NCBI RefSeq assembly: GCF_023650955.1
Contig: NZ_CP098039.1
Coordinates: 2,418,001 to 2,482,000 of the forward strand
Length of the DNA: 64,000 bases
Reading direction: 5' to 3'
Source: Thermosynechococcus sp. HN-54
GTDB taxonomy: Bacteria > Cyanobacteriota > Cyanobacteriia > Thermosynechococcales > Thermosynechococcaceae
The number at the start of each line of letters is the position of its first letter. Within the stretch, counting starts at the first letter, position 1. The translations under genes and the position numbers were made by a program. Shown here in pieces: positions 44,427-51,975 of this stretch. The notes beneath the pieces were generated by a model that saw only the letters and a program-made list of their open reading frames with translations, had not been told where the DNA came from and ran no database searches.

Positions 44427-46004
44427 TTAGTATTTAGGCAACTTTGTAAACCAGTTCTTCTTGGCGCGATCGAGTTGGCCTTGAACCATGCCCGAGACCA
44501 TACTAAAGTCTGCCCCGGAAATATCGGCACCGGTAAAGTTCGCGCCTGAGATCGAGGCATCCTGCAATTTTGCCCCCTTCAAATTCGCCTTCTCAAAGTT
44601 GGCTTGCACCAGATAAGCACCACACAGGTTGGCGTCGCTGAGGTTGGCGCCTTGGAGATTGGCTTCCCGCAATACGGCATTGGTGAGGATGCAGCCCTTC
44701 AAATCGGCATTGGTAAAATTGGCATTGGCAAAATTAGCACCTGAGAGATCCGCATTGCGCAATACAACATTCGAGAGATCGACATCCACAAAATCCCGTT
44801 CTCCCCGTTTATAGGCTGTGATAACCTGTGCTGCCGTCAGCCGTGGGGTAACTTTGGGGCGCAAATGCTGCCCCGGACCTGTGCCTACAACAGGGGGGCC
44901 ACCCAATTGTGTGCCTGTCATTCGCGATTGTCGCAATCGAGCGGCTTGGGCATTTTGGCTCACCGAGGAGGCATAGCTAGAGGGTTTAGCTGACCTTGGC
45001 ACCCGCGGTTGGCCTTGACTGGGGGGCGCCGAAAGGGCACTACTAAGGTCATCATCCTCTGCTGCAACGGCAGGGGCAGCCACAGCAGTTGTTTGTTTGG
45101 TCTGAAGGCGCTGTAGATCGGCTAAGACATCTGTCGCATTTTGGTAGCGATTTTTGACGGCATCCTCCAGCATTTTGTCGAGGAGGGCAGCAAACTCAGG
45201 GGAAATATTTTTCACATACCGCTTCCAATGCCATTCGCCCGTGCGCGGATCCCGCTCAATTTCTTTAGGGGATTTACCCGTCAGGAGATAGACACAGGTA
45301 ACACCGAGCGCATAGATATCACTGGCGTAGATAGGACGCATGGCCATTTGCTCTGGTGGCGCATACATCGGTGTGCCCACAGCAAAGCTCGTAAATGTGG
45401 ATAGTTCTGGGGCATTTTCCACCATCGCTTGGGTGACTTTGTCTTTGACTGCACCAAAGTCGATGAGCACCAGCTTGTTGTCAATATCACGGCGGATTAG
45501 ATTGGCGGGCTTAATGTCGCGGTGGATCACACCATTTTTGTGCAGGTAATCGAGGATGGGTAAGACTTCTTGCAAAACCTGTTTTACCTCTTCCTCGCTT
45601 TTGGGGCCAAAGCGTTTGACCTCCTGTTGCAGGGTGAGGCCACCCACATATTCTTGGACGAGATAAAATTCATTGTCATTTTCAAAGTAGCCAAGGAGGC
45701 GAGGCAGTTGGGGGTGATTGCCAACTTTGCCAAGGGTGGTTGCTTCCCGCAAAAAGAGTTCTCGTGCCATTGCCATGATATGGGGAGCCGTGGCTGCGGG
45801 TCGCAACTGTTTAATCACACAACTAGGATTGCCCGGTAGTTTCGTATCCACGGCCAAAAAGGTCGTGCCAAACCCCCCCCGTCCCAAAACTTTAATGGCC
45901 TTGTATTGATCATTCAGCAAAAGTTTGCTGCCACAGGCTTGGCAAACGTCTAAACCATCAGGGTTGTCTGGCTTGACACAGTTCGGATTTAGGCAGTAAC
46001 TCAT
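44427..46004 (-). CDS. spkB: SpkB-like Ser/Thr protein kinase with zinc-finger and pentapeptide repeats
   Basis: A 525-residue kinase. Order: a four-cysteine N-terminal motif (Cys4, Cys9, Cys21, Cys24); a Hanks-type kinase domain (about residues 35-310) with glycine loop LGRGGFGTTF, catalytic VIHRDIKPANL and LIDFGAVKD; a low-complexity linker; and a C-terminal run of pentapeptide repeats (about 415-515, ADLSGANFANANFTNADLKG). This combination is that of Synechocystis SpkB, implicated in oxidative stress and motility. Orthology is inferred from architecture only. It could phosphorylate partners read by FHA domains, two of which are encoded nearby. Confidence 0.87.
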   Translation of the reverse strand: MSYCLNPNCVKPDNPDGLDVCQACGSKLLLNDQYKAIKVLGRGGFGTTFLAVDTKLPGNPSCVIKQLRPAATAPHIMAMARELFLREATTLGKVGNHPQLPRLLGYFENDNEFYLVQEYVGGLTLQQEVKRFGPKSEEEVKQVLQEVLPILDYLHKNGVIHRDIKPANLIRRDIDNKLVLIDFGAVKDKVTQAMVENAPELSTFTSFAVGTPMYAPPEQMAMRPIYASDIYALGVTCVYLLTGKSPKEIERDPRTGEWHWKRYVKNISPEFAALLDKMLEDAVKNRYQNATDVLADLQRLQTKQTTAVAAPAVAAEDDDLSSALSAPPSQGQPRVPRSAKPSSYASSVSQNAQAARLRQSRMTGTQLGGPPVVGTGPGQHLRPKVTPRLTAAQVITAYKRGERDFVDVDLSNVVLRNADLSGANFANANFTNADLKGCILTNAVLREANLQGANLSDANLCGAYLVQANFEKANLKGAKLQDASISGANFTGADISGADFSMVSGMVQGQLDRAKKNWFTKLPKY

Positions 46005-47066: not shown

Positions 47067-47912
47067 ATGACTACTGCTTCAGCAACGGCTGTTCCCGGTA
47101 TTTTTTCAGGGGAATTTGTCCAAGAAACCCTCGCTCTAACCCGTCGCTTGTTTATTCAACTGCAACGCCGCCCCTCTACACTGGTGGCGGGAGTGGTACA
47201 ACCCTTAATTTGGCTGATCCTCTTTGGTGCCCTCTTCCAGAATGTGCCGCAGGGTCTCTTTGGCGAGAGTACCAATTATGGCCAGTTTCTCTGCGCCGGC
47301 ATTATTGTCTTTACCGCCTTTAGTGGTGCCCTCAATGCAGGGTTGCCGGTGATGTTTGACCGTGAGTTTGGTTTTTTGAATCGGCTGTTGGTGGCGCCGT
47401 TGGCCTCGCGGTTTTCGATTGTTCTTGCTTCGGCGTTGTTTATTACCAGCCTGAGTTTGATTCAGGTGGTGGCGATCGCCAGCTTGGGGGTACTGCTGGG
47501 AACCGGACTACCGAATTTGGCGGGCATTGGTGTGGTTTTGGCCACCGTACTGATCTTGGTCTTTGGTGTGACAGCCTTGAGTCTCGGACTCACCTTTGCC
47601 TTGCCCGGACACATTGAACTGTTGGCAGTGATTTTTGTCATCAACCTACCCTTACTTTTTGCCAGTACTGCCTTGGTTCCCCTGTCGTTTATGCCCCGTT
47701 GGTTGCAGTGGATTGCTAGCCTCAACCCCCTCAGCTTGGCCATTGAACCGATTCGCTATGTCTATTTGCACCCCGATTGGCAGTTTAGCGATGTGGTCAT
47801 GGTGGCGCCTTGGGGATCGCTAAGCTTGGGCGCGGCACTGTTGATTCTTTTGGCTGTTGCCGTGGGGATGAGCCTACTCATTCAGCCTCTATTGCGGCGG
47901 CGCTTGGCCTAA
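47067..47912 (+). CDS. ABC-2 type permease
   Basis: A 281-residue inner-membrane protein with six predicted helices, matching the DrrB/NodJ-like ABC-2 permease family that works with a separate ATPase to export drugs or polysaccharides. FVQETLALTRRLFIQLQRRP is the cytoplasmic N-terminal part, and PLSFMPRWLQWIASLNPLSL (about residues 205-224) is the typical ABC-2 signature region before the last helices. No ATPase gene is adjacent, so the partner must be elsewhere. The stop overlaps that of the convergent gene by 4 bases (47909-47912). Confidence 0.82.
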   Translation: MTTASATAVPGIFSGEFVQETLALTRRLFIQLQRRPSTLVAGVVQPLIWLILFGALFQNVPQGLFGESTNYGQFLCAGIIVFTAFSGALNAGLPVMFDREFGFLNRLLVAPLASRFSIVLASALFITSLSLIQVVAIASLGVLLGTGLPNLAGIGVVLATVLILVFGVTALSLGLTFALPGHIELLAVIFVINLPLLFASTALVPLSFMPRWLQWIASLNPLSLAIEPIRYVYLHPDWQFSDVVMVAPWGSLSLGAALLILLAVAVGMSLLIQPLLRRRLA

Positions 47913-49786
47913 ACGACCCGCAGCGTGAATCCTTGGGTGCACCACTCCCGCACATCTAAGCAAAATTCATTGCCTTCGGGTTCACTGCTGAGATCCGTCA
48001 ACAGCCCTAGCACTAAGGCCAAACTCTCTTCGCCCGAAAGCAGGAAGGGTTCTGAATGATTAGGGTGACTGCTTAGTTGACTGAAGCGGGTGAAGGGACG
48101 GTGGCTGCTAATGATAAAGACCTTGAGCCACTGACAGGGGTGATTCAGTGTCCATGTATAGAGGGGGACGTTTAAGCCGGGGGCAACCACCAACTGCCAC
48201 GACTGCGGTTGCAGGGGCAACAGCAGAATCCCCTGATTGCTGTCCCAAGCAAAGGCAACGATATTGAGGGGGCGATCGCCATAATTGTAGAGGCTCCAGC
48301 GACAGGTCTCTCCCTTGGCCAAGGTGAGGGGTGTTTCTAAGTTCGTGGCTGGTAGCTTCGTGCTCAAAACATCCGGGAAGGGAGTGGGGCTGCGGGGCGG
48401 AGATTGGCGGCTCAGGAGTTTTGCCGTAGGCGATAGTTGTTCAAGCGTTGTACACACGGCCACCTGACTAGAGGTGGGATTCAGGGTCAGTGTCAACCAT
48501 TTCTGAGCAAGCAGGGCACTGAGCAGGGGACTCAGGCGGCGGATGCCTACTTTGGCGGCTTCAGTGGTACCACCGCAACTGGGCTGGAGTAAAGTTCCCA
48601 CCGGCCATTCCAGCCCATAGCTGCCCACTGTTTCACTTTTGGTGAGAACCACATCTGGCAGGGAGTCACTGCCGTTGAGTACGGCAACTTTCTCTTCGTT
48701 GGTCAGGGCATTGATCGCATCTACCCGCTCGATTTTGCTCAGCTTGGTGTCCAGTGCTACCTGTAGGTGCAGATTTTTCCCCAAGCGTCGTTGTTGCTCA
48801 TAGAGGCGATCGCCCACCTGGAGGGGCTGACTACTGACCCCCTGAGCTAGGATGCCATTAAAACTCATCATGTCAACGACGATGGCACCATCAGCAGTGC
48901 TCCAGCGACTGTGGGGATGACAATGAGCCAACAACCAAGGACTGAGGCCGCCACACCAGACTTGAAGGGCGCGATCGTGCCCCGTTGCGTGCACTACCCC
49001 ATCAAAGCCGCGGGAGAGGGTGAGATTCCCCGGTACGCCATTGCTCACTAGATAAATTTCCGCCCCCGTTTGCCAGCGCAGTTCATCAGCAATGTACATC
49101 AAGCTCGTTGCCAAAGAGCGATCGCCCCCCACAGCCGCCAGATAATGACTGCAACTGGCAGTAAACAGTCCCACGGGGAGGCCATTTAAGTGAGTTTCCA
49201 CCCCCAAATCTGCCCAGAGAACATGATCCTTAGGAATCTGTGCTCTCCCCCGTGCCTCAAGGGATTGCAAAGGCACAAATCGCCAGCGTAGCGTTCCTCC
49301 GGCAATGGGTGGTGGGCTAAAACGGGTGTCAAGCCATAGCTGTACGCCTTTGGTACGCAGGAGTTCAGAAAGCGGCAAAATTCCCTGACCCGCGGCAGTG
49401 GCATTGGCTAAAACTAGGGCGGGTTGTTGCTGCCAGAGGGTGCCGTAGCCACTAAAGTAAAACAACAGGGGCTGCCCTGAATGTTCCAAAACCCCTAGGG
49501 TTTCCCTGACAGCATCGAGTGTGGCTGCTTGTTCCGTCAGGAGGGTAATGTCACTGTCCGTCAGCCCCCATCCCTCGATTAGGAGGGTTCTCACCAGCTC
49601 AACATCCGTCAGACAACCCGCCAAGGGCGGTACTCCCGCCAATTGGGGATAGTGGTTAATGCCAATCAGGAGTGCTCGCCAAGGGGGGAGAGCATCTGCA
49701 ACAGAGCCGCCCGTCGCCCGCCAAAACCACGGCATCAGTGTCAGTGCCGCAGCACCGTACAGAAAAGAACGACGGCTAAAGCGCAT
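47909..49786 (-). CDS. Tat-exported pseudo-caspase (C14 fold) with altered catalytic dyad
   Basis: A 625-residue protein starting with a twin-arginine signal (SRRSFLYGAAALTLM, residues 4-18), then a caspase-like domain (ALLIGINHYPQL at 39-50; LLFYFSGYGT at 107-116). In active orthocaspases the histidine sits in FYFSGHG and the cysteine in DSCHSG. Here they are Tyr114 and apparently Arg155 (LDTRFSP), so proteolysis is unlikely. The rest (about 200-625) has no clear motif but includes beta-rich stretches (about 500-570). Such inactive cyanobacterial caspase homologues exist in the family. The start has no convincing ribosome-binding site. Confidence 0.8.
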   Translation of the reverse strand: MRFSRRSFLYGAAALTLMPWFWRATGGSVADALPPWRALLIGINHYPQLAGVPPLAGCLTDVELVRTLLIEGWGLTDSDITLLTEQAATLDAVRETLGVLEHSGQPLLFYFSGYGTLWQQQPALVLANATAAGQGILPLSELLRTKGVQLWLDTRFSPPPIAGGTLRWRFVPLQSLEARGRAQIPKDHVLWADLGVETHLNGLPVGLFTASCSHYLAAVGGDRSLATSLMYIADELRWQTGAEIYLVSNGVPGNLTLSRGFDGVVHATGHDRALQVWCGGLSPWLLAHCHPHSRWSTADGAIVVDMMSFNGILAQGVSSQPLQVGDRLYEQQRRLGKNLHLQVALDTKLSKIERVDAINALTNEEKVAVLNGSDSLPDVVLTKSETVGSYGLEWPVGTLLQPSCGGTTEAAKVGIRRLSPLLSALLAQKWLTLTLNPTSSQVAVCTTLEQLSPTAKLLSRQSPPRSPTPFPDVLSTKLPATNLETPLTLAKGETCRWSLYNYGDRPLNIVAFAWDSNQGILLLPLQPQSWQLVVAPGLNVPLYTWTLNHPCQWLKVFIISSHRPFTRFSQLSSHPNHSEPFLLSGEESLALVLGLLTDLSSEPEGNEFCLDVREWCTQGFTLRVV

Positions 49787-49920
49787 GCCTTACCTCCCAA
49801 CACGCCCATCCTCTGGTTCGAGCACAGGCACGACAACGTTGCTATGAATTAGGACTAGTTCTATTCTCAGAGGTTGTGGACTGAATTCAGCGCCCAGTGG
49901 GCATAAAAGGCAAATTTCTC

Positions 49921-50571
49921 CTAGGTGGGTTCCCCTTGAACAATGAAGGAAACCCGCTGACCCATTGCTGTTGCATGGTCACCCATGCGTTCAAGATTGT
50001 GAATCAACAACAGCAGGAGCAAGCGCAACTCCACTGACTCTTGGGGATTGAGGGGGGCACACAGTCGCTGATAAAGACGGTGATAGTCGGCATCTACCGC
50101 GTCATCATGATTGGCGAGGGCTAGCCCCAACTCAGGATTAGAATCGGCGATGGCGGATAGCGCTTCCGATAGTAACAGTTGCGATCGCTCGAACATGAAG
50201 CGGATGTCTTCAAGGTAGGGGGTGAGTGGATAGCGCAGCAGGGTTTGACTTGCGCGGCCAATTTCAAGGGCATAATCGCCAATCCGCTCCAGATCGCGGC
50301 AGAGGTGGGACACCATCATCAAAAATCGTAGATCCTCAGCTACTGGAGCATGTAACGTCATTAGGGCGATCGCCTCACGATCTAATGCTTGGGCACTTCG
50401 ATTAATTTCCCGTTCCCTTTGGATCAACTGCTCCACACTGAGAAAATCACGCTCCACCAAAGCACGATAGGCCAGCTGACAGGCGCTTTCGACAAGGGTG
50501 CCGAGTCGCAGCACATTACTGCGCAGATGTTGGAGTTGTCGCTGAAAATGGGTGGTCACTGCCCTAGACAC
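49921..50571 (-). CDS. phoU: PhoU, phosphate-transport regulator
   Basis: A 216-residue two-repeat helical bundle that tunes the Pst transporter and the phosphate two-component system. The typical EREINRSAQALDREAIALM (about residues 50-68) and the second-repeat VDADYHRLYQRL (about 147) metal-binding acidic runs are present. Length is standard. No pst or pho regulator gene is adjacent in this window; ppk, another phosphate gene, lies about 46 kb away. Confidence 0.93.
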   Translation of the reverse strand: MSRAVTTHFQRQLQHLRSNVLRLGTLVESACQLAYRALVERDFLSVEQLIQREREINRSAQALDREAIALMTLHAPVAEDLRFLMMVSHLCRDLERIGDYALEIGRASQTLLRYPLTPYLEDIRFMFERSQLLLSEALSAIADSNPELGLALANHDDAVDADYHRLYQRLCAPLNPQESVELRLLLLLLIHNLERMGDHATAMGQRVSFIVQGEPT

Positions 50572-50724
50572 CCATCCCTTTGAATGAGAATTGTGCTTTT
50601 CAGTGTGCCAAAAAAGCGGCTACTTGTTTTGTAGGCACAGGGGCAAAGATTGATGTATAAAATAGAGTCGTTTTGATTCCTCAGGGGCGCGATCGCCCCC
50701 ATTCAAGCGATCTCAAGGCTCTCA

Positions 50725-51975
50725 ATGGTTGGCTATCTCATTTCCCTTGGTATCTTCACTGCCACCTTCGCCCTCTTTAGTCTAGGGCTAAATTTGCACT
50801 GGGGCTATACAGGACTAATTAACTTTGGTCATGTAGGGTTTCTCGCCATTGGTTCCTACACCACCATTTTGTTGGGAATTGCTGGGGTGCCGATGTTTTT
50901 TGCTGTCCTTGCTGGGGTGGTGTTGGCAATGGGACTGGGCTTTTTAATGGGGATTGCCACGCTGCGGCTGCGGGAAGATTACCTTGCGATTGTCACGATC
51001 GGTATGGCGGAAATTGTCCGCTTGATTGCCCTCAATGAGGATTGGCTAACCCGAGGGGGTCGGGGGGTGTATGGATTTCCGCTGCCCCTTGCAGACTTCA
51101 ATCCCAATGTGCCAACCAAGTTAGGGATGATTGCTCTTTTTTGGGCTGTGGTGGGGGCGGCTGCATGGCAGTGGTGGCAATGGCTAAAGCGGCAGTATGG
51201 GCGATCGCACCCCCAGTGGTTACTCCCTAGCTATGCGGCTTTGCTGATTGCCGGTACCCTCAGCCTTTGGGCGACATTGCTTCCCCTGAGCTTAGGACGG
51301 GGAATTGCCATTTTTCCTCTGGTGTTGACACTGGTGACGCTGAGTGGGGCGATCGCCCTCGTGAGCTATGGTTGGCGTCAAGAAAAACGAACCGTGGTTG
51401 CCATTGCCCTGAATACCTTGGCCGCTGCCCTTGTCGGCTTGGTGGTCAAAGCCCTGACCCTTGGTCTGTGGGACTTTAGTTACCGCGCGGGGCTGTTGTG
51501 GCTGTTGGTCTTGGTCTTGGCCTTGGTGGTGTGGCAGTTGGAGCGTTGGATCCACTCCCCCTGGGGACGGGTACTCAAAGCCATCCGTGAGGATGAAGAA
51601 GTGGCCAAGGCCTTGGGTAAAAATGTCTTTGCCTACAAAATGCAATCCCTCCTTTTAGGGGGGGCGATCGCGGCTGTAGCCGGCTCTTTTTATGCCTGGC
51701 AGCTCACCTTTATTAACCCCGACGGCTTTGTGTCCCTAATTACCTTTCAGGCGTGGACGATTGTCGTTTTAGGGGGAGCAGGAAACAACATGGGCACCCT
51801 CTTGGGAGCTGCCCTCTTTTGGGCCTACACTGCCTTAACCCGCTTTATTCCCCTTGATGGCGGTCGCCTCGAGGCGTTGCGGATGATGCTCATTGGCCTT
51901 GTCCTCATTATCTTGATGATGTGGCGACCCCAAGGTATTTTGGGCAAAAAGGAGGAACTCAGCCTTGGTCGATGA
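50725..51975 (+). CDS. natD: branched-chain/neutral amino-acid ABC permease (LivM/NatD type)
   Basis: A 416-residue polytopic permease. It begins with the LivM signature LNLHWGYTGLINFGHVGFLAIG (within about residues 23-44), continues with the EDEEVAKALGKN coupling loop that contacts the ATPase, and ends with the VLGGAGNNMGTLLGA region. It is longer than most LivM proteins (about 320) because of an additional helical insert between about residues 145 and 250, which is also seen in cyanobacterial NatD. The ATPase gene follows with an 11-base overlap. The transporter is likely the neutral amino-acid N-I system. Confidence 0.85.
   Translation: MVGYLISLGIFTATFALFSLGLNLHWGYTGLINFGHVGFLAIGSYTTILLGIAGVPMFFAVLAGVVLAMGLGFLMGIATLRLREDYLAIVTIGMAEIVRLIALNEDWLTRGGRGVYGFPLPLADFNPNVPTKLGMIALFWAVVGAAAWQWWQWLKRQYGRSHPQWLLPSYAALLIAGTLSLWATLLPLSLGRGIAIFPLVLTLVTLSGAIALVSYGWRQEKRTVVAIALNTLAAALVGLVVKALTLGLWDFSYRAGLLWLLVLVLALVVWQLERWIHSPWGRVLKAIREDEEVAKALGKNVFAYKMQSLLLGGAIAAVAGSFYAWQLTFINPDGFVSLITFQAWTIVVLGGAGNNMGTLLGAALFWAYTALTRFIPLDGGRLEALRMMLIGLVLIILMMWRPQGILGKKEELSLGR

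Follow-up and report, generated by a model that had tools for sequence, protein, structure and literature searches.

The type II metacaspases AtMCA9 and AtMCA4 and the paracaspase MALT1 are active proteases and carry the His-Cys dyad. Pseudo-orthocaspases that carry a Tat signal and, mostly, a Tyr-Ser (YS) dyad have been published for nearly all cyanobacteria, as far as the available text of Klemencic et al. describes them (PMC6426788); these authors noted twin arginines and an A-x-A motif in the YS clade, proposed Tat export to the periplasm or lumen, and reported that both Asp residues of the S1 pocket are conserved. The same text mentions TbMCA4 of Trypanosoma brucei, whose dyad is also replaced (Tyr-Ser) and which is presumed or shown to be inactive yet functional. 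SyOC of Synechocystis PCC 6803, a Tyr-Gly pseudo-orthocaspase (PMC6426788), is the single one in a unicellular genome, according to the accessible part of PMC7889975. The Tyr-Arg (YR) dyad is listed in two surveys: in the sections available, PMC8283722 counts it among 16 rarer dyads, and PMC7475262 gives one sequence with Arg for Cys and reports no such protease in T. elongatus BP-1. An earlier survey had listed T. elongatus, but Jiang et al. (2010) dropped its protein, the domain being seen by CDD and not by SMART, and the text at hand of their paper states that the species is without an orthologue (PMC2853523).

Here we analysed a 64,000-nucleotide stretch of the genome of Thermosynechococcus sp. 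HN-54 (the window), in which a 625-aa protein of this kind is encoded (Table 1). The first-pass annotation had pointed to YS-type orthocaspases as its relatives, and this relation was borne out. Like the YS and YG pseudo-orthocaspases of PMC6426788, as described in its available text, the protein has Tyr at the His position, a residue other than Cys at the Cys position, a Tat-like RR...AxA signal and an acidic S1 pocket; like those of small unicellular genomes, it is the sole caspase homologue found. It differs in having Arg at the Cys position, where they have Ser or Gly. Since the dyad is Tyr-Arg and not exactly Tyr-Ser, we regard the protein, like the Tyr-Gly members, as a variant within the pseudo-orthocaspase family. 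The YR orthocaspases of PMC7475262 and PMC8283722 have, by their listed dyads, the same two residues. SyOC, with Gly at the Cys position instead of Arg, and TbMCA4, which is eukaryotic unlike the cyanobacterial protein, are likened to it by description.

Table 1. Features of the pseudo-orthocaspase gene and its upstream neighbour (positions in the window)
Feature	Position	Strand	Basis
Whole gene, 625-aa pseudo-orthocaspase	47909..49786	-	Single open frame; Pfam match; homologues in genus
Putative twin-arginine signal, aa 1-32 (SRRSFLY ... ADA)	49691..49786	-	RR in 139/141 homologues; Tat models under cut-off
Caspase domain (p20 + p10-like part), aa 34-258	49013..49687	-	Structure model; VIA Z 16.9 to 8a53_A over aa 31-258
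Cys58 + Asp61, taken as TbMCA2 Cys92 + Asp95 (S1 pocket)	49604..49615	-	134/141 + 141/141; motif positions; PMC4357240 (available text)
Ser112, taken as TbMCA2 Ser156	49451..49453	-	141/141; PMC4357240 (available text)
Tyr114, catalytic His position	49445..49447	-	Motif position; profile alignment to metacaspase-9
Asp153, taken as TbMCA2 Asp211	49328..49330	-	141/141; PMC4357240 (available text)
Arg155, catalytic Cys position (AtMCA9 residue 147)	49322..49324	-	Profile alignment; codons in genus; family alignment
Beta-barrel, aa 260-335	48782..49009	-	Model of C-terminal part
Alpha/beta domain, aa 336-440, with invariant Asp356 and near-invariant Arg354	48467..48781	-	Model; alignment
C-terminal beta-sandwich, aa 486-625, DUF4384-like via orthologue alignment	47912..48331	-	DUF4384 in 4/10 homologues
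phoU-like gene (named by reading its sequence), 134 bp upstream	49921..50571	-	Neighbour in genus

The gene coordinates of the first-pass annotation are correct, and the strand is minus: this strand is one open frame from ATG to stop, and the frames of the plus strand are interrupted by many stops. A protein search found the gene in all 11 genomes of the genus. Relatives in Thermosynechococcus records (L033-L035) show 83-86% identity to the 625-aa protein. A frame or sequencing artefact was ruled out, as the Tyr and Arg codons stand at both places in 11/11 genomes. In one genome (G003; L010, L013) the homologue is two overlapping open frames, split at a C run in the linker that leads into the last domain; this may be a true break or a sequencing error, and the Tyr and Arg codons are intact. 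For seven pairs of genus members, Nei-Gojobori dN/dS was 0.078-0.142 over the whole gene and 0.095-0.159 within p20. These values indicate that selection still acts on the dead domain and that the gene is maintained despite the loss of its catalytic residues. A scan of 47700-50800 gave no sigma-70-like promoter site, a negative of little weight.

The caspase fold recognised by the first-pass annotation was confirmed, with ALLIGINHYP, FYFSGYGT and LDTRF where it had placed them. Pfam Peptidase_C14 matched aa 37-120 (29.1 bits; cut-off 21.4); a sequence search of an orthocaspase should show no p10 domain, and this match stops at aa 120, but the profile alignment and the model reach the p10-like part to about aa 258. 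The predicted model (pLDDT 83.9, pTM 0.86) aligned with metacaspase-9 (8a53_A) over 202 residues at an rmsd of 2.7. Among the matches listed for aa 31-259, metacaspases, the bacterial GSU0716 structure and MALT1 gave Z of 13.8-16.9 and caspases about 14. AtMCA9, AtMCA4 and MALT1 thus share this fold and, by profile alignment and the available text of PMC4357240, the acidic residues of the S1 pocket.

Modelled alone, aa 256-625 folded into three parts: first a barrel, then an alpha/beta domain, and last a beta-sandwich (pLDDT 88.8, pTM 0.90). The barrel is similar to those at the N-termini of F1-type ATPase subunits and of EscN (Z at most 9.3, rmsd 2.4, 66 residues aligned), a likeness to rotary ATPase subunits that may reflect a shared arrangement at most. 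As barrel matches fill the list of this search, aa 336-625 are barely covered by it, and the Foldseek matches to the C-terminal module were not trustworthy (best E 5e-4, TM 0.14). DUF4384 scored over its cut-off on the sandwich in four of ten homologues tested (L036, L086, L104, L079), with no Pfam match to it in the 625-aa protein itself. A candidate assignment of aa 327-440 to a TolB/CsgG-type domain, without any supporting Pfam match, was dropped. Outside the dyad, Arg333 and Asp356 are invariant among 141 distinct homologues and Arg169 nearly so (140/141).

The dyad was mapped with a profile of 26 family members aligned to metacaspase-9. The column of Tyr114 aligned with the His of SGHG in metacaspase-9, and that of Arg155 with AtMCA9 residue 147, numbered by counting along the printed alignment and being the Cys mutated to Gly in entry 9n3d. 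Thus, both substitutions read by the first-pass annotation, Tyr114 for His and Asp-Thr-Arg at 153-155 with Arg at the Cys position, were upheld. The structure prediction that it had proposed as a check agrees: in this confident model residue 155 lies directly after strand 148-153, and Tyr114 follows strand 107-112. A second Cys/His pair serving as the active site was rejected. Of the ten Cys residues only Cys58 is retained in most homologues (134/141), and no His of the 625-aa protein is present in more than 19 of 107. The His-Cys dyad of active caspase-family proteases is replaced by Tyr114 and Arg155, and the protein should not act as a cysteine protease. Full-length homologues share the Tat signal, the caspase domain and the C-terminal module, which places the protein in the pseudo-orthocaspase family. 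We consider both this membership and, judged from the dyad positions, the loss of proteolysis nearly certain.

In TbMCA2, according to the available text of PMC4357240, the S1 pocket potentially includes Cys92, Asp95, Ser156 and Asp211; of the residues that we take as their counterparts, Asp61 and Asp153 are present in all 141 homologues, so that the acidic pocket is retained as in the YS-type clade. Since the pocket residues that accept Arg or Lys in metacaspases are strictly kept, the domain can be presumed to bind a basic side chain still. The invariant acidic pocket supports the first-pass idea of a scaffold or ligand-binding protein, and a binding role for the non-catalytic caspase domain is, in our view, likely. 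It is very improbable that the protein is an enzyme of another kind, with residues of the old cleft doing different chemistry: Asp61, Ser112 and Asp153 (141/141 each), Arg169 (140) and Glu197 (137, the rest Asp) might be taken to suggest one, but Tyr114 is replaced in 24/141 members and residue 155 depends on the clade, so there is no fixed catalytic set at both places.

At the N-terminus, MRFSRRSFLYGAAALTLMPWFWRATGGSVADA, twin arginines and an A-x-A end precede the caspase domain, as expected of the Tat-type signal claimed by the first-pass annotation. The scores of the Tat models are below threshold (Pfam, 12.1 bits against 22.7; NCBIfam, 12.4 against 16.7). Twin arginines stand in the aligned columns of 139/141 distinct homologues, whose start codons were picked near the RR motif, and the two without them lack that part of the sequence (L029, and L119, which begins at a contig edge). 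A-x-A occurs within aa 15-60 in 112/141, and TatC is encoded in the genome. The signal suggests that the folded protein is exported via Tat to the periplasm or thylakoid lumen. The first-pass annotation had called both the export by Tat and the Arg at the Cys position unusual. As the RR signal is the rule in the family and has been described for the YS clade in the available text of PMC6426788, "unusual" applies to the Arg alone.

To place Arg155 in the family, we aligned the 141 distinct sequences among 147 homologues recruited with the 625-aa protein or its alignment, a sample that leaves true orthocaspases aside. Thirteen pair types occur: YS (84), YG (22), YR (10), CS (8), HG (4), FS (3), LS (3), CG (2) and, once each, KC, YC, LA, FG and LG; a His-Cys dyad was found in 0/141. 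Cys at the His position (FSGCG) is seen in eight members (L026, L031, L056, L061, L066, L082, L090, L106), and L030 has Lys there with the Cys retained; in all, Cys, His, Phe, Leu or Lys replace Tyr114. The homologue survey suggested by the first-pass annotation thus found a general RR signal and YR confined to the protein's own genus. The ten YR sequences come from ten of its genomes, and the eleventh, G003, shares their Tyr and Arg codons. In homologues from outside the genus a small residue always stands at position 155 (131/131: 98 with Ser, 30 with Gly, 2 with Cys and 1 with Ala).

On a quick IQ-TREE tree of the 141 sequences, built with the dyad columns excluded, without true orthocaspases and having many long branches, Arg155 requires one origin and the genus has an SH-aLRT of 100. 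L014 and L015, which belong to the same taxonomic family, lie nearest and are both Tyr-Gly; their exact order is poorly supported (54), and the group of 12 reaches 100. Arg155 is therefore fixed in the genus and out of line with all relatives seen, in what appears from these comparisons to be an otherwise ordinary family member. If the published YR sequences (PMC7475262, PMC8283722, as listed in the text available) come from another genus, Arg arose elsewhere too, although none of our 131 outside sequences has it.

What, then, does Arg155 do? The preferred model has Tat exporting the folded protein to the periplasm or thylakoid lumen, where the caspase domain would be a non-catalytic binding or scaffold domain whose pocket takes a basic side chain, and the three-part C-terminal module would add further contacts. 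A single change on the genus stem would then have placed Arg at the nucleophile position, probably in or beside the S1 pocket. The likeliest specific effect, to which we still give rather long odds, would be a pairing of Arg155 with Asp61 or Asp153, filling or neutralising the pocket as a built-in P1 mimic. A tentative proposal for this thermophilic genus, at the same odds, is that Arg155 takes the place of a P1 arginine in its own pocket (Asp61, Asp153) and thereby keeps the domain shut as a scaffold.

A stronger contender, though still somewhat short of even chances, is that Arg155 is neutral, having drifted in after catalysis was lost and become fixed in the genus by chance, with the function in the rest of the protein. 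The dyad is variable in the family, with 14 changes in the Cys column on the tree, and the nearest sequences have Gly, from whose codon Arg is one base change away. The genus stem is long (0.74 changes per column), and a scan that passed over columns with more than 30% gaps found 51 genus-diagnostic residues, 18 in the 225 residues of aa 34-258 and 33 in the 367 of aa 259-625. Given this even spread and the length of the stem, Arg155 may have arisen by drift at a site freed from constraint. A remodelling of the genus protein concentrated near the pseudo-active site was unsupported, the diagnostic residues being about equally dense after the caspase domain. Against neutrality, the site is not free, since it is small in every sequence outside the genus, and Arg is retained in 11/11 genus genomes amid silent codon changes that flank it. 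Chance fixation opposes only the pocket-filling step, not the assignment to the family. Taken as a whole, we think it quite likely that the protein is a Tat-signal pseudo-orthocaspase that is exported and, without catalysis, acts in binding or as a scaffold, its pocket for basic residues being retained.

Two proposals for related proteins would give it a more specific role. According to the available part of PMC7889975, a SyOC knock-out is more tolerant of H2O2, and SyOC, as noted, is itself a pseudo-orthocaspase; the protein might by analogy be a pro-death or stress regulator acting through protein contacts. We hold this to be possible but doubtful: in the same text the knock-out has no obvious phenotype absent stress, the likeness to SyOC is one of description, and a protein outside the cytoplasm requires a route to such a signal.

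Still less probable, to our minds, is a helper of sulfur nutrition, suggested by the gene neighbourhood. Outside the genus, sat (ATP sulfurylase, named from sequence; seed from L036) is often the same-strand upstream neighbour, at gaps of 5-483 bp. We looked for this pair in L016-L032, L036-L111 and L112-L151, and sat was directly upstream within 600 bp in 65/72 testable related loci (Nostocales-rich), 23/39 cross-family picks and 9/18 best genome-search loci, some loci being identical in two sets. The 39 were picked across families from a class-wide search in which 303/388 genomes match at E <= 0.001, a figure that includes other caspase homologues and is not a family count. The misses include L021 (sat present, start mis-called), L097 (sat on the other strand) and L124 (sat 2.0 kb up). 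A gene resembling MTA phosphorylase lies downstream in 17/79 loci. The available text of Asplund-Samuelsson et al. places sat and MTA phosphorylase beside the Nodularia metacaspase M32 and proposes a sulfur link (PMC4933709). This paper alone was found for orthocaspase and sulfurylase in a limited collection, supplements excluded, and the breadth of the sat pair across cyanobacteria extends its observation. Sat and the pseudo-orthocaspase thus likely form an ancestral gene pair, as judged from these loci. Shared position is not shared function, however: 16 of the 39 cross-family loci are without the pair, and in the genus sat is single-copy and elsewhere in the genome, with 0/14 genus loci having it upstream. 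Moreover, Sat is cytoplasmic, whereas the pseudo-orthocaspase bears an export signal.

In the genus the same-strand upstream neighbour is instead a phoU-like homologue (11/11 genomes; short or in pieces in L004 and L008), an adjacency that does not imply a common function. A putative ABC-2-type permease gene converges on the end of the pseudo-orthocaspase gene. Further along the minus strand, 44427-46004 reads by eye as a protein kinase that begins with a zinc-ribbon-like part and also has pentapeptide repeats.

The family, the Tat signal and the listing of a YR dyad were already known, as far as the cited texts were available; what stands out is Arg155, shared by a whole genus. We infer that the T. 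elongatus protein excluded in PMC2853523 is the same gene, and the pseudo-orthocaspase of the genus bears on the absence from T. elongatus stated in the available text of that paper and of PMC7475262. The gene is the only Pfam C14 match in the 2.71-Mb genome; as this model detects 8/11 genus copies against 11/11 by protein search and so misses three, the apparent lack of further caspase homologues depends on a model of incomplete sensitivity. Proteins of Thermosynechococcus crystallise well. A naturally mutated pseudo-protease pocket is thus available in this genus, with no second caspase homologue found by Pfam in the genome searched. If Arg155 does fill that pocket, relatives with a small residue at this site would keep theirs open for basic peptide ends outside the cytoplasm.
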